Assembly: GCA_028097945.1 (NCBI GenBank)
Contig: JAOHFJ010000015.1
Span: 1-19,548 of the forward strand
DNA from: Candidatus Pelagibacter sp.
GTDB lineage: Bacteria > Pseudomonadota > Alphaproteobacteria > Pelagibacterales > Pelagibacteraceae
DNA length: 19,548 nt
Direction of reading: 5' to 3'
In this document: piece by piece, positions 7,335 through 14,954 of the stretch
Position numbering within the stretch: position 1 is the stretch's first letter
How the letters are laid out: every line of letters begins with the position of its first letter
The notes under the pieces: generated by a model
Told to the model about the DNA's origin: nothing
Database searches by the model: none
The model's input: the letters and a program-made list of their open reading frames with translations, nothing else
Program-made: the position numbers and the translations under genes

Positions 7335-8168
7335 ATGTATAACATAAATAGAAGAAAATTTCTTGGCTATTTTGGCTGTAGTTGCTGCTCATTAATGCTA
7401 CCTTCTTGTTCAACTGTTCCAATTACCGAAAGAAAACAATTAAGCATTATACCTGAATCACGAATAAACAAACAAGCCGCTGCTGCGTATGAAAATTTTA
7501 GAAGTAAGTCAAAGTTAATTACAAGTGGTCGCCAACTTAATGAAATTATAGAAATAGGAAAAAAAATGGAAGTTGCTGTAAGTACTTTTTTTGTAAATCA
7601 AAATAAAAATGACCCGACTAGAAACTTCGGATGGGATTACGTGTTAGTAGATAATGATAAAATTGTTAACGCCTGGTGTATGCCTGGTGGAAAAATAGCT
7701 GTATATACTGGATTGTTAAAAATTACTAAAAATACTGATGCTCTTTCAATTGTAATGGGTCACGAAATAGCTCACGCTGTTGCAAAACATTCTTTAGAAA
7801 GAATGAGTCATGCTATGACATTGAATTTAGGAACAACTGTTGCAGATATATTTTTAGGAGGAGCTATTAATAGAACAAGGAATACAGTAGGTCAAAATAC
7901 TGGTTTTGATATTTTTCAATTAGGTATAATGAATCCTTTTGGAAGAAAACAAGAAACAGAAGCAGATTATCTTGGATTAATTTTTTCTTCTTTGTCTGGA
8001 TTCGATATTAGGGAATCAACAAATCTTTGGAGAAGAATGGCTGAAAAGAACAAGGGAAAGGAACCACCAGTTTTCTTAAGTACGCATCCAAGCAGCAAAA
8101 AAAGGATTGAAAATTTGAGCAATTGGATAAATGAAGTAATGATTAAATACCCACCAATAAAAATCTAA
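7335..8168 (+). CDS. M48 family metallopeptidase, lipoprotein with Tat-like signal
   Basis: Zinc metalloprotease of the LoiP/YcaL/BepA-like group, expected in the cell envelope for quality control of outer-membrane proteins. The zinc motif HExxH is H143-E-I-A-H147. The third ligand is E207 in QETEADYLGL, and the substrate-loop segment STHPSSKKRI (249-258) is characteristic. The N-terminus NRRKFLGYFG (residues 5-14) resembles a twin-arginine signal, and a lipobox LPSC ends at Cys25 with Ser at +2. At 277 residues it has a single catalytic domain without TPR repeats. The start at ATG 7335 places the RR motif correctly. Its stop lies 4 nt before the tRNA-Lys fragment of the adjacent island, so before insertion it was directly convergent with tRNA-Lys. 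Confidence 0.88.
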   Translation: MYNINRRKFLGYFGCSCCSLMLPSCSTVPITERKQLSIIPESRINKQAAAAYENFRSKSKLITSGRQLNEIIEIGKKMEVAVSTFFVNQNKNDPTRNFGWDYVLVDNDKIVNAWCMPGGKIAVYTGLLKITKNTDALSIVMGHEIAHAVAKHSLERMSHAMTLNLGTTVADIFLGGAINRTRNTVGQNTGFDIFQLGIMNPFGRKQETEADYLGLIFSSLSGFDIRESTNLWRRMAEKNKGKEPPVFLSTHPSSKKRIENLSNWINEVMIKYPPIKI

Positions 8169-8177
8169 TTATTGGTG
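8152..8177. repeat. 9-bp inverted repeat spanning the M48 stop and tRNA-Lys fragment
   Basis: CACCAATAA (8152-8160) and TTATTGGTG (8169-8177) form a perfect stem with an 8-nt loop that contains the stop codon. The right arm includes the CCA-encoding end of the tRNA fragment. No T-tract follows on either strand, so intrinsic terminator function is doubtful. Confidence 0.4.
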
Positions 8178-8217
8178 AGCCCTGATGGACTCGAACCATC
8201 GACACCCTCCTTAAAAG
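8173..8217 (-). repeat. tRNA-Lys 3'-half duplication (distal att site of island)
   Basis: Exact 45-bp match to 10108-10152, covering tRNA-Lys from the first anticodon-loop base through the T-arm, acceptor 3' strand and CCA. Identity breaks at 8218/10153, exactly at the 5' edge of the 7-nt anticodon loop. The 5' half of a tRNA is absent here, so this is not a gene. It is the classic footprint of site-specific integration into a tRNA. Confidence 0.93.
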
Positions 8218-8222
8218 TTTCC

Positions 8223-8349
8223 TGCACATGAGTTAATTAAAGCCTAAAAGAAGTATTATCTGCCCGTTTTAGCTTTAAATTAAGGTTATGCTTATTCTCA
8301 AAACTGCACATTTTCTGCACACAGTTTTTTGTGTGCTGTTTTATGTGCC
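8223..8349. repeat. GCACA motif cluster, left end of island
   Basis: TGCACA at 8223-8228 and 8305-8310, TGCACAC at 8316-8322, and inverted copies GTGTGC at 8331-8336 and ATGTGC at 8343-8348. The inner pair GCACACA (8317-8323) / TGTGTGC (8330-8336) forms a 7-bp stem with a 6-nt loop, and the outer copies extend the symmetry imperfectly. This resembles binding sites for an element-encoded DNA-binding protein. Confidence 0.6.
8233..8283. repeat. Imperfect inverted repeat in left end of island
   Basis: TTAATTAAAGCCTAAAAG (8233-8250) is nearly the reverse complement of 8265-8283 (core TTTTAGCTTTAAATTAA), with two one-base offsets and a 14-nt loop. It could be a stem-loop or paired protein sites. 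Function not known. Confidence 0.45.
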
Positions 8350-8354
8350 AATTT

Positions 8355-9923
8355 TTATTTTTGTTCATTAACATTTAATAACTCTGCAACTTTTTTGTGG
8401 CCTCCTAATTTCTTAATGTAAGATCTTAAATGTTGCGGAAAACCTTCATATTTAGCAGATCTGATATTTTTAGATGATGGCAAAAAACCAAGTTTTAAAG
8501 CATATCTTTTTAAATACCAAAGAAGATAATTTGTGTGTTTAAATTGATGAAAGGATAATTCTTTATCCATTTTAATTGCTAAATTATGTAATCCTATTTT
8601 TTTTATTACAGGCCTTAAACCATTAGGGCCTTTGCTACCTATAACGTCTAAAGATGGTATTTTGTCATCAATTAACAAAGGTTTAATATTCTTAACAATT
8701 TTATCAAAAGTATCAAAATCCTCAAAAGTTGAAGGATTTCCATGTTGTAGATTTAAATTTAAGGCACATTTACGAGAACCACCGAAGTGAATATACATAG
8801 CTGCAAATAAATCCAGTTTATTCTCTTTTTTAAATTGTGCATGTGTAGGCATTTTTCTATATTTTTTTGAAAGAGCTATTATTTGCTCTTTTACTTTATT
8901 TTTTGTCCATTTAAGTTTTATTTCAGGTTCTTTTATTTTATATTTGCTTCTAAGATATGGGAAGCCACCTATTTTCATAAATCTATCTCTAAAACCTGCA
9001 AACTTTTTATCTGTTAATTTTCCATAGGCTGGTAAATATCCATAATGTTTTACAACTTTATCTAAATCATTTTTTAAACTTTTTTCGTCATAAAGTTTGG
9101 CATTGAGTAAATTAATGCTATCAATTTTTGAAATAGGTTTTATTTTTTTTATGATATTATTTTTTAATAAAATTTTTGAAATACTTTTATAAACGTAACT
9201 TAAAGAGCCATTTAAAAGTTTATGCCCATCAATTTCTATTAGTTTAAGATTAAATTTTTTATAAAGTTTTATCTTATCAGACCTTTTTTTGTTATAAACA
9301 TTACCTCTTTCAGTTAAGTGCTTTTCATTATAACCCCAAATTTCAATATATGTGTCTATGCCATTTAAATTTGTAACTTTAAAATCATATTTGTATTTTT
9401 TTTTTGATTTATTTGAGATTAAGGATTCATAATCATATTTTAAGTTATAAAAGTTTAAGATATTGTCAAAAAGTAATTCGTATTGACTCTTTACATACTT
9501 TCCAGATGCTGTAACAAATATATTTTTTTTATTTAAATCTTCACCTAACTCTTTATAAAGTTTTTCAATTGATGAAAAATATTTATCTTTTTGTATAGAA
9601 AGAGCTCTCTCATCTAGTAAAACTAAATCATTATATGATGGAAATCTTCCAATTTTAGATTTTATTCTTTTATATCCCTCCAATACTTTATTTTTAGAGT
9701 CGTACTTAACCGGATCTGCTATTAATCTGTCTTTATGTTTAGGTCTCTTTAATAACCTCCAAAAAAACCTTTGACCCCCATTTCGTTGAATAGCTCCTCT
9801 TAAATCTGCTTTGCCTTCTTCGTCTAATTCTTTTCCACTAGGCCAATATCCTTTGGCTATAACGATTTTTTGTAAATCTTTAATTATTATTTTTTTTGTC
9901 CAGTCTTTTTGTTTTTTCTTCAT
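8355..9923 (-). CDS. Island protein: repeat-module protein with PD-(D/E)XK/Vsr-like nuclease domain
   Basis: I do not recognise a named family. The 522-residue lysine-rich protein has about six related 50-60-residue modules at roughly 12-58, 78-128, 280-328, 339-390, 402-452 and 464-517. Each has helix, then G-x-[FLW]-P-[SAT], then a leucine-rich helix, most ending in K/R-x-[GI]-G (GYWPSGKEL, GRFPSYNDL, GYLPAYGKL, RKMPTHAQF, DKIPSLDVI, GFLPSSKNI). Residues about 141-240 lie between modules 2 and 3 and look like a PD-(D/E)XK or Vsr/DUF559-type nuclease: E149 in SQYELLFD, D180 in YKYDFKV, E194 in YIEIWGY, then NKKRSDKIKLYKKF and LIEIDGH. Trp196 occupies the usual catalytic-Lys position. There is no signal peptide or membrane segment. 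It is the only gene of the island, co-oriented with tRNA-Lys. A homing-type or target-specifying DNA endonuclease is my inference; RNA binding or defence are alternatives. Confidence 0.6.
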   Translation of the reverse strand: MKKKQKDWTKKIIIKDLQKIVIAKGYWPSGKELDEEGKADLRGAIQRNGGQRFFWRLLKRPKHKDRLIADPVKYDSKNKVLEGYKRIKSKIGRFPSYNDLVLLDERALSIQKDKYFSSIEKLYKELGEDLNKKNIFVTASGKYVKSQYELLFDNILNFYNLKYDYESLISNKSKKKYKYDFKVTNLNGIDTYIEIWGYNEKHLTERGNVYNKKRSDKIKLYKKFNLKLIEIDGHKLLNGSLSYVYKSISKILLKNNIIKKIKPISKIDSINLLNAKLYDEKSLKNDLDKVVKHYGYLPAYGKLTDKKFAGFRDRFMKIGGFPYLRSKYKIKEPEIKLKWTKNKVKEQIIALSKKYRKMPTHAQFKKENKLDLFAAMYIHFGGSRKCALNLNLQHGNPSTFEDFDTFDKIVKNIKPLLIDDKIPSLDVIGSKGPNGLRPVIKKIGLHNLAIKMDKELSFHQFKHTNYLLWYLKRYALKLGFLPSSKNIRSAKYEGFPQHLRSYIKKLGGHKKVAELLNVNEQK

Positions 9924-9954
9924 CTTTAACTTAGGAGTGTAAATCCTTAACTAG

Positions 9955-9968
9955 GAACTGCACAGTTC
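9955..9968. promoter_or_regulatory. Palindromic operator-like site upstream of the island gene
   Basis: GAACTGCACAGTTC: arms GAACTG/CAGTTC around a 2-nt centre, 32 nt upstream of the ATG at 9923. It contains the TGCACA motif repeated across both island ends, so autoregulation by the island protein is plausible. No convincing promoter hexamers could be fixed around it. Confidence 0.45.
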
Positions 9969-10046
9969 AAAAATGTAGGAATTTGGTCTTGTGTACTACT
10001 CCTTATTTAGGAGTTGCACACATAATTCAGCACAAAAAGAGCACAC
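9959..10046. repeat. GCACA motif cluster, right end of island
   Basis: TGCACA at 9959-9964, TGCACAC at 10015-10021, GCACA at 10030-10034 and GCACAC at 10041-10046, all in the same orientation. The first two lie in a longer shared frame CTTAnnTAGGAnnTGCACA (9946-9964 and 10002-10020). A further TTAGGAGT lies at 9931-9938 and again at 10007-10014. These match the motifs at the left end and suggest arm-type or iteron-like protein sites. Confidence 0.6.
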
Positions 10047-10068
10047 AGAGGTTTTAGCAAATTAGGGA

Positions 10069-10078
10069 GGTGTACACC
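10069..10078. repeat. Perfect 10-bp palindrome near the tRNA-proximal island end
   Basis: GGTGTACACC, self-complementary, 29 bp inside the 3' end of tRNA-Lys. It follows AGGGAGGTG (10064-10072), a 9-bp match to the 5' strand of the tRNA-Lys anticodon stem (10151-10159). A role in att-site recognition is possible but unproven. Confidence 0.35.
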
Positions 10079-10107
10079 ACTTAAATAAACGTTGTAAATG
10101 CTTATTG

Positions 10108-10152
10108 TGGTGAGCCCTGATGGACTCGAACCATCGACACCCTCCTTAAAAG
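10108..10152 (-). repeat. Proximal att copy within tRNA-Lys
   Basis: The 45-bp segment identical to 8173-8217, running from the CCA end to the first base of the anticodon loop. The 7-nt anticodon loop at its inner edge is the likely strand-exchange or break site. Confidence 0.9.
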
Positions 10153-10183
10153 GGAGGTGCTCTACCAACTGAGCTAAGGGCCC
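10108..10183 (-). tRNA. tRNA-Lys (anticodon UUU)
   Basis: Complete 76-nt tRNA with encoded CCA (10110-10108). The acceptor GGGCCCU pairs with AGGGCUC with one G-U wobble; the anticodon stem CCTCC/GGAGG encloses loop CTTTTAA with anticodon TTT. The D-arm has AGCTCAGTTGGTAGAGC and the T-loop TTCGAGT. It is the insertion target of the adjacent island: its 3' half, from the anticodon loop on, is duplicated at 8173-8217, so the present 3' half probably came with the element while the gene stayed intact. Confidence 0.97.
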
Positions 10184-10226: not shown

Positions 10227-11342
10227 TTAATCAAATAATTTTATATATTTTTTGTAAAAGGATTGGAATGTGCCATTCTGAATACTTTGTCGAATTTCCC
10301 GCATAAATTGTTGATAAAAATATATATTATGTAGTGAAATTAGCATTGAAGCCATCATTTCATTAGATTTAATTAGATGATTTAAATAACTCTTAGAATA
10401 TTTATTAAGTTCTCTTATTTCACAATCTTTATCTAAGGGTGACTGATCTTTTTGATACTTTGAATTTTTTAGATTGATTTTACCTTGCCATGTAAAAGCT
10501 AAACCTGTTCTGCCTGATCTTGTGGGCATAACACAATCAAACATGTCAATACCTTCATTAACAGCACCTAGTATATCCGAAGGTGTTCCAACACCCATAA
10601 GATATCTTGGTTTTAGTTTAGGAAGAAATTCAGTTGTCTTATTTAAAATACTAAACATGTCTCGTTGTTTTTCACCAACAGCCAATCCACCCATAGCGTA
10701 TCCATCAAAGTTAATATCAATTAATTTTTCTATACTTTCAAGACGTAAATCTTTATACAGACCGCCTTGAACAATACCAAATAATCCCTTAGATTTATCA
10801 TTGCCAAATTCGGTTTTACTTCTTTTTGCCCAATTAGTTGAAACATCTATTGCTTTTGATAAAATCTTCTTATCTTTAGTTAGTTTTGGGCATTCATCTA
10901 AAACCATTATTATATCTGAATTGATAGATTTTTGAACTTGAATACTTTTTTCAGGACTTAAAATTATTTTTTTACCATCTAGATGTGAGCTGAAAATTGC
11001 TCCCATTTTTAAATCAATTTTATTAAATTTTGACAAAGACATTATTTGATATCCACCTGAGTCTGTTAAAATTGGTTTTTTCCAATTCATAAAATTATGT
11101 AAACCGCCAAATTTATTTAATGTTTGAACCCCAGGTCTTAGTAATAAATGATAAGTGTTGCCTAATATAATTTGAGTATTAGTTTTCAAAATGTCATCTG
11201 TAAAAATGCCTTTAACTGTTCCTTGGGTACCAACAGGCATAAAAGCTGGGGTGTCGATGTCACCACGAGAAGTGTTTATTTTACCCAATCTAGCCTTACC
11301 CTCTTGAGTGATTAACTCAAAAGAAAAATTCCTAATTGACAT
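10227..11342 (-). CDS. tgt: tRNA-guanine transglycosylase (queuine tRNA-ribosyltransferase) with degenerate zinc site
   Basis: Exchanges guanine-34 of tRNAs with GUN anticodons for preQ1 in bacteria. At 371 residues it has normal length. Active-site motifs are intact: D94 in DSGGYQ, GGLAVGE (218-224), RYLMGVGTPSDI and the nucleophile D269 in GIDMFDCVMPTRSGR. The structural zinc site, normally CxCxxC plus a later His, reads C307-E-I-R-E-L, so only the first Cys remains, while His338 is present. I re-read the nucleotides and the codons are unambiguous (TGT GAA ATA AGA GAA CTT). The gene starts 6 nt after the ppiB stop; queA, commonly between ppiB and tgt in Alphaproteobacteria, is missing. The fold could be stabilised without metal; preQ1 versus queuine use cannot be decided here. 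Confidence 0.92.
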   Translation of the reverse strand: MSIRNFSFELITQEGKARLGKINTSRGDIDTPAFMPVGTQGTVKGIFTDDILKTNTQIILGNTYHLLLRPGVQTLNKFGGLHNFMNWKKPILTDSGGYQIMSLSKFNKIDLKMGAIFSSHLDGKKIILSPEKSIQVQKSINSDIIMVLDECPKLTKDKKILSKAIDVSTNWAKRSKTEFGNDKSKGLFGIVQGGLYKDLRLESIEKLIDINFDGYAMGGLAVGEKQRDMFSILNKTTEFLPKLKPRYLMGVGTPSDILGAVNEGIDMFDCVMPTRSGRTGLAFTWQGKINLKNSKYQKDQSPLDKDCEIRELNKYSKSYLNHLIKSNEMMASMLISLHNIYFYQQFMREIRQSIQNGTFQSFYKKYIKLFD

Positions 11343-11348
11343 TTATTA

Positions 11349-11909
11349 TTATTTTAAAGATCTTATGGAAATTATCTTGTCAGGATCTTGAACTGAACCG
11401 CTATTTGGATCACCTTTTTTAATCATATCAATAAATTCCATACCTTCCACTACTTTTCCAAAAGCCGAGTACTGTCTATCTAAATGCGGAGATGAGTCAA
11501 AACAAATAAAAAATTGACTATTTGCACTATCAGGATCTGCAGACCTTGCTGCCGAGATTACACCTCTGGTATGAGCAATGTCAGAAAATTCAGCTTTAAG
11601 ATTTGGTAAATCAGACCCCCCAGTTCCAGCCATGGATAAATTGAAATTTTCATTTTTTGAATTTCCAAATTTAACATCTCCAGTTTGAGCCATAAAACCC
11701 TCAATTACTCTATGAAACACTACGTTATCATATTTACCGCTATCAGCTAAATCTTTAAATCTTTTTACATGGTTAGGTGCTTTTTCTGGGTAGAGCTCTA
11801 TTTTTACTTCACCATGTGTTAATTTTAGTATCATAAGATTGTTTTGTGCGAATATATTATTATTTACTAAACTAAAAATAAGAATAAATAAATAGAAAAT
11901 TTTTTTCAT
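11349..11909 (-). CDS. ppiB: Periplasmic cyclophilin-type peptidyl-prolyl isomerase
   Basis: Catalyses cis-trans isomerisation of prolyl bonds in secreted proteins. The 186-residue product has an N-terminal signal peptide (residues 1-21, ending NIFA). The cyclophilin core follows: VVFHRVIEGFMAQTGD (active-site Arg and Gln), GVISAARSADPDSANSQFFI and HLDRQYSAFGKVVEGM. The gene is five bases after coaD and six before tgt, within the ssb-gyrA-coaD-ppiB-tgt operon. Because of the signal peptide it corresponds functionally to a periplasmic (PpiA-like) enzyme, although the operon gene in Alphaproteobacteria is often named ppiB. Confidence 0.92.
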   Translation of the reverse strand: MKKIFYLFILIFSLVNNNIFAQNNLMILKLTHGEVKIELYPEKAPNHVKRFKDLADSGKYDNVVFHRVIEGFMAQTGDVKFGNSKNENFNLSMAGTGGSDLPNLKAEFSDIAHTRGVISAARSADPDSANSQFFICFDSSPHLDRQYSAFGKVVEGMEFIDMIKKGDPNSGSVQDPDKIISIRSLK

Positions 11910-12398: not shown

Positions 12399-14954
12399 TT
12401 AATTAATATTGTCCTCAATTTTAATTACAGAAACTACTTTTTCGCTTCCTGATAATTTTTTAATTCTTACTCCTTGAGTATTACGACCTGCAACTCTGAT
12501 TTCTTTCACGGCACATCTCATTATACTTCCTTTATCGGTAGATAAGATAATATCATCAGTTTCATTTACGACTAAGGATGAAGATATGTTTCCATTTCTT
12601 GGTGAATTTACAATACCAATAATACCTTTTCCTCCCCGATTAGTAACTCTATAATCTAAATAAGAAGATCTTTTACCGTATCCATTTTCTGATACGGATA
12701 AAATAAACTTATCTACTCCAGTTTTTATTTTTTTATCTTTATTTATGGTTTTAGTGTCTATTTTGCTATTATCCAAAATAGATAGAGATATGACTTTATC
12801 TTTTTCATTAAGTTGAATTCCTTTAATTCCTTTAGATGATCTTCCTTTAAATAATCTTAATTTTTTAGATTTAAACCTGATACATTTCCCAAATTGAGTA
12901 CTCAAAAGAATATCTTGATCATCTCTACATATTTTAACACCTATAATTCTATCATCTTGATCTAATTTCATTGCAATTTTTCCACTATTATTGATATTAA
13001 CAAAATCCTCTAAAGTGTTTTTTCTTATATTTCCTTTAGCGGTGGCAAAAATTACCATTAAATTTTTCCACTCAGATTCATCCTCAGGTAATGGCATAAT
13101 GGAACTTATTGAGTGATGGCTTTTTAGAGGTAGAATGTTAAATATTGATTTTCCTTTTGATGCAGCTGTACCTTCAGGAATTTTATGAGCTTTTATTTTA
13201 TAAACTAATCCTTGAGTAGAAAAAAATAATACCGGTGTATGAGTATTTGCAGTAAATATCTGAACAACGAAATCTTCTTCTCGAGTTGAAATGCCTGTTT
13301 TGCCCTTTCCACCTCTCTTTTGAGCTTTTAATGAGCTTAAAGGACTGCGTTTAATGTAACCCTGGTTTGTAATACTGATAACAACAGACTCTTTTTGGAT
13401 TGTTTCCTCAATATTATAATTTAGAACTGCATCAATAATTTTAGTCCGTCTTGGTTTAGAAAATTTATCTTTAATTTTTTCTAATTCTTCAGTTATTAGT
13501 TTATAAAGCTCTTTTTTAGAGTTAATAATTTTATTATATTCAATTATTAACTTAGCAAGTTTGTTAATTTCACTTTCTATTTCCCCTATTCCGTAAGCTG
13601 TAAGTTTTTGTAATCTTAATTCTAAAATTGCATTTACTTGTTCAATGGAAAGTGAGTAACTTGATACGTTTTTTTTTTTTCTATTAATGAAATTAATTTT
13701 CCATTTTTTTGATAAAAGATTTTTTTTTGCTATTTCTGTATCTTTAGAATTTTTTATAATTTTAATTATTTCATCTATATTTTCTACAGCAGTAGCTAGA
13801 CCAATTAAAATATGAGCTCTTTCTTCTGCTTTTTTTAAATCAAATTTTACTCTTTTTACAACTGTATCTTCTCTGAATTTTAAAAATTCTGAAATAAATT
13901 CCTTTAAATTAAGTATCTTTGGTTTATTATTAACAATGGCTAAAGTGTTAAAACCAAAAGAACTTTCTATATTTGTGAGTTTGTAAAGTTGTCTTCTGAT
14001 CATCTCTGGTTCAACTGCTTTTCTTAATTCTATAACTACTCGAATTCCTTCCCTATTGGACTCATCTCTTATATCTCTGATGCCTTCAATTTTCTTATCT
14101 CTTACAAGTTGGGCTATTTTTTCAATAAGCATTGATTTGTTAACTTGATAGGGAATTGATTTAATTATAAGTGTTTCTCTGCCACCTTTTTTTTCTTCAA
14201 GATCTATCTCTCCTCTAATCTTAAATGATCCTCTGCCTTTATTATAACCTTGTTTAATAATATCTTTGCCAATTATAATTCCTCCTGTGGGGAAATCTGG
14301 GCCAGGCACGTGTTTCATTAATTGGGCGATAGTAATGTCCTTATTATTTATATAAGCTATAGTTCCATTGATTATTTCACCCAAGTTATGTGGAGGGATA
14401 CTCGTAGCCATACCAACTGCGATACCTCCTGCACCATTAACTAAAATGTTAGGGTACTGAGATGGTAAAACTTCAGGTTCTTTTTCTGTTTCATCATAAT
14501 TGCTGCGATAACTGACAGTATTTTTTTCTAAATCCTCAGTTAAAAATTGTGCAATTTTTCCTAATTTTGTTTCTGTGTATCTCATTGCTGCAGGTGGATC
14601 TCCGTCAATTGAACCAAAATTACCTTGCCCAGTTATTAATGGAACGCTCATCGAAAAATCTTGTACTAATCTTACTAGAGCATCATAAACTGATTGATCT
14701 CCATGAGGATGATATTTACCAATTACATCTCCAACTATACGAGCTGATTTTCTAAAGGGTTTTGACCAATCATAACCACCTTTATACATTGCATATATTA
14801 TTCTCCTATGCACGGGTTTTAAACCATCTCTCACATCTGGAAGAGCTCTACTTACAATTACGCTCATAGCGTAAGAGAGATAAGATGAACTCATTTCATC
14901 TTGGACAAAAATAGGCTTAAATGATTTATTATTCGTTACGATATTTTTTTCCAT
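12399..14954 (-). CDS. gyrA: DNA gyrase subunit A
   Basis: Breaks and rejoins DNA for negative supercoiling together with GyrB. The 851-residue product has the catalytic Tyr126 in AAMRYTETK. The quinolone-determining segment [14 protein letters not shown] (82-95) has Gln87 at the position of E. coli Ser83 and Asp91 at Asp87. The GyrA box [11 protein letters not shown] in the C-terminal beta-pinwheel distinguishes it from ParC. A run of twelve A (coding strand; 13680-13669) encodes the Lys triplet in [10 protein letters not shown] near residues 426-428. The gene starts 6 nt after ssb and is followed one base later by coaD. Resistance cannot be inferred from Gln87, since the natural residue varies among lineages. 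Confidence 0.97.

Follow-up and report, generated by a model that had tools for sequence, protein, structure and literature searches.

How does a piece of DNA that encodes no integrase come to be set, base for base, into a tRNA gene of a bacterium with a streamlined genome? The question is raised by a stretch of 19,548 nucleotides from Candidatus Pelagibacter sp. (contig JAOHFJ010000015.1; the window, i.e. the whole stretch of DNA that was analysed), which is SAR11 DNA (its M48 peptidase is 90% identical to the counterpart in the Pelagibacteraceae single-amplified genome AG-914-E07) and in which an insert of 1.9 kb lies between the M48 gene and a gene for tRNA-Lys(UUU). Few kinds of cell on Earth outnumber SAR11 bacteria, whose genomes are streamlined and in which few mobile elements have been recognised. 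A sequence-only reading of the window had described the insert as a minimal genomic island; going beyond that, we find that it is a member of a family of stackable cassettes that lack an integrase, and we consider it rather probable that it is a cis-acting, non-autonomous SAR11 cassette whose movement depends on a phage-type integrase that acts in trans at the anticodon loop.

The insert and the empty sites of its relatives

The insert is bordered by a 45-nt direct repeat that is exact and whose copies start 1935 nt apart (Table 1). One copy is, as had been noticed from the sequence, the 3' half of the single intact tRNA-Lys(ttt) gene, and it starts at nucleotide 32 of the tRNA, with which the 7-nt anticodon loop (CTTTTAA) opens, and ends with the encoded CCA (nucleotide 76). 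Between the repeats lie a non-coding end of 137 bp, an open reading frame (ORF) of 522 aa on the strand of the tRNA and a second non-coding end of 184 bp. The ORF takes up 83% of the inner 1890 bp and is the one enclosed gene that the sequence-only reading had claimed, for the only other ORFs of at least 50 aa that touch the insert have 52 and 53 aa and TTG starts. The non-coding ends are indeed rich in a GTGCACA-like motif, of which nine clusters are found in the 321 bp of the insert outside the ORF and six in the 17,537 bp of the window outside the island; the associated p-value of 4e-13 is optimistic because the motif was picked after inspection.

Relatives were compared at the M48 gene, using the best 80 of at least 579 confirmed loci; tRNA-Lys follows in 77 of these and none was found in the other three. 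Measured from the last aligned M48 residue, and thus including the stop codon, the distance to the tRNA is 4-74 nt (median 12) in 71 of the 77 loci, i.e. the site is empty, and it is 6-21 nt in the 14 best-ranked relatives (M48 71-90% identical). The spacing is therefore as compact as had been presumed from the 4 nt that separate the window's M48 ORF from the repeat, and since relatives lack the insert at this junction, it is an insertion, which bears out the proposed integration into tRNA-Lys on the point that was to be its main check. Six loci (L017, L018, L024, L027, L048 and L068) fall outside the empty set. A profile of the encoded protein, a putative nuclease, matched none of 397 Pelagibacteraceae genomes, a search that had no positive control and whose empty answer alone shows nothing.

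The insert thus shares with known tRNA islands a regenerated tRNA at one end, a displaced tRNA fragment at the other and an empty site in relatives, but not an integrase of its own: its sole ORF above 53 aa has no integrase match. That it is very small, as had been pointed out, holds at 1.9 kb, and related cassettes of 546 and 814 bp (see below) are smaller still; judging from its structure, it would be a mobile element.

Table 1. Features of the insert and its flanks (positions in the window;., no strand given)
Feature	Position	Strand	Basis
Left direct repeat, displaced 3' half of tRNA-Lys (nt 32-76), M48 side	8173..8217	-	Exact repeat; equals tRNA nt 32-76
Anticodon-loop heptamer in left repeat, likely crossover overlap	8211-8217	-	Crossover presumed here
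Left non-coding end with 4 clusters of the GTGCACA-like motif (putative arm sites of an integrase)	8218..8354	.	Motif count
Cargo gene (522 aa) with a Vsr/I-Bth0305I-like endonuclease domain flanked by helical modules	8355..9923	-	
Predicted nuclease domain, aa 133-260	9144..9527	-	D180, E194 and K217 invariant in 15 aligned sequences; presumed catalytic
Right non-coding end, 5 motif clusters	9924..10107	.	Motif count
Right-end segment, 92% identical to right end of the 546-bp cassette of genome G105	10023-10107	.	85 bp
Intact tRNA-Lys(UUU); 3' half (10108-10152) presumably supplied by the cassette	10108..10183	-	ARAGORN, Rfam
Anticodon loop of intact tRNA-Lys	10146-10152	-	
Flanking host gene, M48 peptidase, convergent with tRNA	7335..8168	+	80 SAR11 homologous loci
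Flanking host gene, tgt	10227..11342	-	Synteny in relatives

A family of cassettes with shared ends and unlike cargo

The exact 45-nt pattern is present in 275 of the 397 genomes (largely single-cell or metagenome assemblies), and five of these (G077, G105, G328, G356 and G390) hold a second copy on the same strand, a count that misses decayed repeats because no mismatches were allowed. Together with the window and locus L027 (genome G002) this gives seven exact-repeat inserts, each between M48 and tRNA-Lys, with start-to-start spacings of 546, 1644, 1778, 1935, 2281, 2331 and 4001. Locus L048 carries three tandem repeats before its tRNA, 89-93% identical to that tRNA, which delimit cassettes of 2511, 1946 and 2197 bp, and locus L068 carries one repeat (91%) and a cassette of 814 bp. 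In total there are 11 cassettes (the window's and ten others, 0.55-4.0 kb), in all of which the repeat consists of the same 45 nt (32-76) of the tRNA, and variable cargo lies at one site behind a tRNA-fragment repeat. Other tRNA loci, which the sequence-only reading had also proposed to search for the same ends, were covered only insofar as they lie within the M48 loci, and there such a repeat is absent from all 57 tRNA-Ser genes and from the one tRNA-Glu gene.

Several candidates were not counted. The two opposite-strand repeats of G122 are an artefact, as the ends of its contig 9 (L140) form a perfect inverted duplication of 5.5 kb, probably an amplification or assembly chimera, and L024 (gap 156) has no repeat. 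L017 and L018 were left out for want of a left repeat, despite right ends of type C (see below); they have in common an insert of 2.1 kb (L017:10823-12913, L018:10823-12902) that encodes a protein of 648-649 aa (TPR-like by eye), is absent from the close relatives L020, L022 and L026 and is possibly a cassette that became fixed through decay of its left site. In L048, two of the three displaced repeats (11746-11790 and 13692-13736) have a CTGG/CCAG T-stem where the tRNA has TTGG/CCAA, as if cassettes carried tRNA halves from other lineages; the relatives are too distant to prove such a switch.

The ends sort the cassettes into types. Left ends (130 bp) and right ends (95 bp) were called alike when a pair scored z >5 and none of 100 shuffles scored as high. 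Among left ends 18 of 55 pairs are alike, all within set B (G328, G002, L068) or set C (G356, G390, G077 and the three cassettes of L048); among right ends, with L017 and L018 added, 25 of 78 pairs are alike, again within sets only and never between types, the sets being A (the window and G105), B, and C with L017 and L018 but without G077, whose right end has no partner. Type A is defined by right ends only: neither the window nor G105 has a left end with a partner, and none of the other 10 cassette left ends passed the likeness test with that of the window. Within types, the left ends of otherwise unlike cassettes are 78-96% identical. The ends, 3,960 bp in all, hold 50 clusters of the motif (GTGTRC/GYACAC/TGTRCA/TGYACA); the interiors hold 16 in 17,529 bp and SAR11 background DNA 41 in 96,000 bp (ends versus interiors: Fisher p 1.7e-24, for a motif chosen by eye). 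Matches to the ends elsewhere added no cassette: a 28-base type-A match in G107 sits inside an open frame and is due to chance, and among 34 genomes with type-C left-end matches three are real (G390, G356, G077), whereas the seven inspected of the other 31 have no tRNA in the 3-kb locus and look like chance.

The cargo differs from cassette to cassette, and a Pfam scan of all 24 cargo ORFs of at least 70 aa yielded no integrase family. An all-cassette comparison found the proteins to be mostly dissimilar, with few exceptions: MORN-repeat proteins in G328 and L048, a pair of small proteins in G002 and G356 (25%) and a 92-aa protein that is 96% identical between G390 (L139) and the first tandem cassette of L048. 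The nucleases that neighbour the latter are 38% identical over 56 aa, a pattern that suggests recombination inside cassettes. Apart from MORN, recognizable families are a Pif1-like helicase (G356), Sel1 repeats (G077), an M48 peptidase (G002) and a PD-(D/E)XK nuclease, Cas4-like in PADLOC, in the G390 and L048 cassettes; several other cargo ORFs have no known family. The last cassette of L048 (13737-15888, 2.2 kb), from a SAR11 single-cell genome, holds a whole restriction-modification system, i.e. a convergent pair of an N6/N4 methylase and an EcoRI-family endonuclease (PF02963, E 2e-102). Of 20 cargo proteins compared with PHROGs, the named matches were to a helicase, an exonuclease, a methyltransferase and, weakly, porphyrin biosynthesis, and none was to a structural, packaging or integrase family; the integrase and the packaging or regulation genes of a phage satellite such as a PICI are thus lacking from these proteins, as they are from the window ORF.

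The reading direction is that of the tRNA in 22 of 24 ORFs and in the tRNA-proximal ORF of all 11 cassettes (ORFs of one cassette are not independent). Going by this orientation we would guess that cargo is expressed by read-through from the tRNA promoter; in the interval from the tRNA to the window ORF, a simple minus-strand scan found no promoter- or terminator-like site, with promoter counts that equalled those in shuffles and are little informative.

Phages at the same tRNA and the probable source of the integrase

Integrases are found at this tRNA in phages. In the IMG/VR contigs L089 and L090 the end of a SAR11 M48 gene (a portion of 54 bp in L089, read by eye) is followed by the same 45-nt repeat, DNA rich in the motif, a tyrosine integrase (404 and 430 aa, respectively) and then podovirus-type terminase and head-tail connector genes. 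These contigs share with the cassettes the host site, the repeat and the class of end motif, and differ in carrying an integrase and virion genes; one end of each is covered. In L093, L095 and L100 related integrases neighbour a complete tRNA-Lys that is flanked on either side by the same motifs, and in L093 a second CTTAAAAG was seen by eye about 300 bp off, adjoining the integrase-side arms. Five integrase-side regions contain the motif at 10-30 per kb, three other-side regions at 10-15 per kb. Phage isolates gave distant matches: 13 records for the L089 integrase, all 22-26% identical, and 146 for its head-tail connector, including 25 Pelagibacter phages, the 15 listed being all 25-27% identical. 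A tRNA-Lys query against the isolates returned 1,762 records, of which the 40 listed concern phage tRNA genes or unannotated places and are uninformative.

Of 176 comparisons between cassette ends and phage ends, 14 passed 100 shuffles at z >3.5, and for nine pairs the score was then compared with those of 3000 random stretches of SAR11 DNA. The type-C left end of G077 and the integrase side of L100 agree in 91 of 123 columns, a score reached by none of the 3000; none reached that of L095 with the L068 left end either, nor that of L093 with the G328 right end, which concerns an AT-rich stretch of 35 nt without the motif. The G105 right end was equalled by 5 of 3000 stretches for both L089 and L093, and the window right end by 19 of 3000 for L093. 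The link to phages is strong for one type-C end; for the window the similarities are suggestive only.

These observations would be accounted for by the following scheme. The cassette would consist of the 3' half of tRNA-Lys (nt 32-76), two non-coding ends with integrase arm-type sites and a cargo gene. The circular cassette would be recombined with the chromosomal tRNA-Lys, at the 7-nt anticodon loop, by a tyrosine integrase that acts in trans and comes most probably from a temperate phage with this tRNA-Lys as its own target. The tRNA would be made whole again by the 3' half that arrives with the cassette, and the old 3' half of the host would be displaced to the far end. The restored site could be used again and cassettes would stack, with the newest adjoining the tRNA, while the cargo, lying in the direction of the tRNA, would perhaps be expressed from its promoter; excision and transfer from cell to cell would presumably belong to the same cycle. 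Crossover at the anticodon loop by a tyrosine integrase is proposed because the repeat is limited exactly at that loop, and such enzymes prefer anticodon loops, with an overlap of 7 bp; action in trans is proposed because the cassettes are without recombinase. The tandem of L048 is the array expected from a reusable site.

Several results weigh against this scheme. The L090 integrase scores below the PF00589 cut-off, though above that of Phage_int_SAM_5, and the motif exceeds the host level in phage gene regions as well (3.0 versus 0.43 per kb). The window right end matches L089 in 20 of 23 bases, equalled by 4 of 3000 random stretches before allowing for the 176 comparisons, and the window left end was equalled by 23 (L093) and 345 (L089) of 3000. 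The exact end patterns of types A, B and C have no match in IMG/VR. The left end of the 546-bp cassette (G105) lacks the arm motif, and this cassette may be a dead deletion. An integrase profile matched just 3 of the 397 SAR11 genomes, and there beside tRNA-Leu(CAA), not tRNA-Lys. The open frames of these three integrases (L134, L135, L136; 419-426 aa) lie about 90 bp from the tRNA-Leu, which may be a second SAR11 tRNA target for phage-type integrases; by position neither they nor a second, weak PF00589 match in G003 (at a locus with tRNA-Met) are helpers here.

A last such point concerns the enzyme. A conserved tyrosine recombinase of 317-319 aa was present in all nine genomes searched (with 70-100% identity to that of G328), 16-29 kb from tRNA-Lys on the same contig in eight and the sole PF00589 match in eight, and it could itself move the cassettes, which would make the locus integron-like with a platform enzyme of its own. 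The copies lie at L151-L156 and L187-L189 (G105, G077, G390, G002, G356, G328, G046, G003 and G038; the stated length is that of the six that were read), and one copy that was examined scores far below the XerC and XerD cut-offs and reaches 32 bits for integrase_gron (cut-off 265). We regard this alternative as unlikely. The recombinase also occurs in genomes with a single copy of the repeat (G038, G046), and multi-site ends on both sides are a feature of phage-type integrases. The XerD-like part starts at residue 20 in the resident protein and at residue 112 in the phage integrase, and the roughly 90 N-terminal residues that the resident protein lacks may be those that read arm sites. Since the ends resemble phage ends and the resident protein is shorter by these residues, a phage integrase is favoured.

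A little less likely still is that the inserts are remnants of prophages or larger islands from which the interior was deleted, leaving the ends and one to six chance genes. The repeat and motifs shared with L089 and L090 fit such an origin, as does the decay seen in the left end of G105 and at L017 and L018. It is at odds with the PHROGs result for the cargo, with a tandem in which each of the three cassettes retains both ends and with the 78-96% identity of left ends among unlike cassettes of one type.

The 522-aa nuclease of the window invites a third explanation, namely that it is a homing endonuclease which cuts the empty tRNA-Lys and spreads the element by repair from the occupied copy. 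Its domain has the fold of a Vsr/I-Bth0305I-like endonuclease, with a catalytic domain among the closest to I-Bth0305I and Vsr, and a single, weak HNH_repeat match (aa 76-100) lies below the cut-off. Yet no similar ORF occurs in the other 10 cassettes, including the 546-bp one with the same right end as the window, and the insert does not disrupt the tRNA; homing is thus very improbable, and the nuclease is best read as cargo, probably a gene for defence or interference. Its relatives number 14 by protein search, of which 13 have no contig as long as 4 kb, and one more with alignment; there are none in genome_contigs or IMG/VR and no PDB match by sequence, and in the phage collection the match is 26%, to two records of Geobacillus virus E3. 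Least credible is that the region was swapped only by homologous recombination of the flanking core genes, the repeats being the fossil of one old insertion: passages of PMC7542561 report frequent genome exchange in SAR11, but the tandem copies and the diversity of end types and cargo call for several site-specific events, and L068 has empty relatives with an M48 gene product up to 98.5% identical to its own.

Known systems and gene gain in SAR11

Small tRNA-linked cassettes are already known from other streamlined lineages, as parts of two earlier accounts make clear (PMC7771536, PMC10872708). In 'Ca. Methylopumilus', repeats of the tRNA-Lys 3' end precede additive insertions of 330 bp-42 kb with 1-63 CDS, mostly unknown genes (PMC10872708); the likeness is that such repeats flank insertions of mostly unknown genes, the difference that the Methylopumilus repeat comprises the last 20 nt of tRNA-Lys(CTT) and the SAR11 repeat nt 32-76 of tRNA-Lys(UUU), and the passages on these islands do not discuss shared ends, a helper or a missing integrase. 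For 'Ca. Actinomarinales', streamlined marine bacteria with tRNA-targeted gene cassettes, a cell-wall island with five tRNAs is described in a text from which the word integrase is absent and in passages that name no recombination site (PMC7771536). Tycheposons, as described in part of PMC10872708, are tRNA-linked cargo elements of streamlined marine bacteria as well, but measure 4-200 kb and have a tyrosine recombinase, whereas the SAR11 cassettes measure 0.5-4 kb (1.9 kb in the window) and have none. From SAR11 itself, passages in print report a prophage in tRNA-Val (PMC7542561), discuss islands (PMC7318151) and mention an island without obvious transfer genes (PMC12421898). A literature search of titles and abstracts, with subscription papers mostly outside it, found no published account of the tRNA-Lys cassettes.

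Two further systems invite comparison. Cis-mobilizable elements (CIMEs) are flanked by attL and attR, hold cargo only, lack a recombinase and are thought to derive from integrative and conjugative elements (ICEs) by deletion. The SAR11 cassettes are like them in having flanks of the attL/attR type, which would function as such, and no integrase in 24 of 24 cargo ORFs; they differ in that end types are common to unlike cassettes and resemble phage ends, and with regard to an ICE origin and accretion there is one tandem array, and the probable helper would be a phage rather than an ICE. Integron cassettes stand in tandem, are free of recombinase, have the newest next to the anchor and share one main reading direction. 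All of this applies to SAR11, the position of the newest cassette presumably, whereas the anchor is a tRNA gene, the sites look phage-type and no integron integrase was found.

We therefore propose, as a tentative extension that may well prove too broad, an integron-like gene capture in SAR11, in which tRNA-Lys(UUU) would serve as anchor and promoter, recombinase-free cassettes would each supply a 3' half of the tRNA together with arm sites of the phage type, and phage integrases acting in trans would build arrays, so that genes for defence (EcoRI-family restriction-modification, helicase, nucleases) would pass from one population to another. Because the cassettes are small, have clear-cut ends and share one target, each of them a bounded unit, they make the way in which SAR11 gains accessory genes testable. 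The cassette family suggests a simple route of gene gain for these streamlined bacteria and offers a mechanism for the tRNA-linked cassettes of other streamlined lineages.

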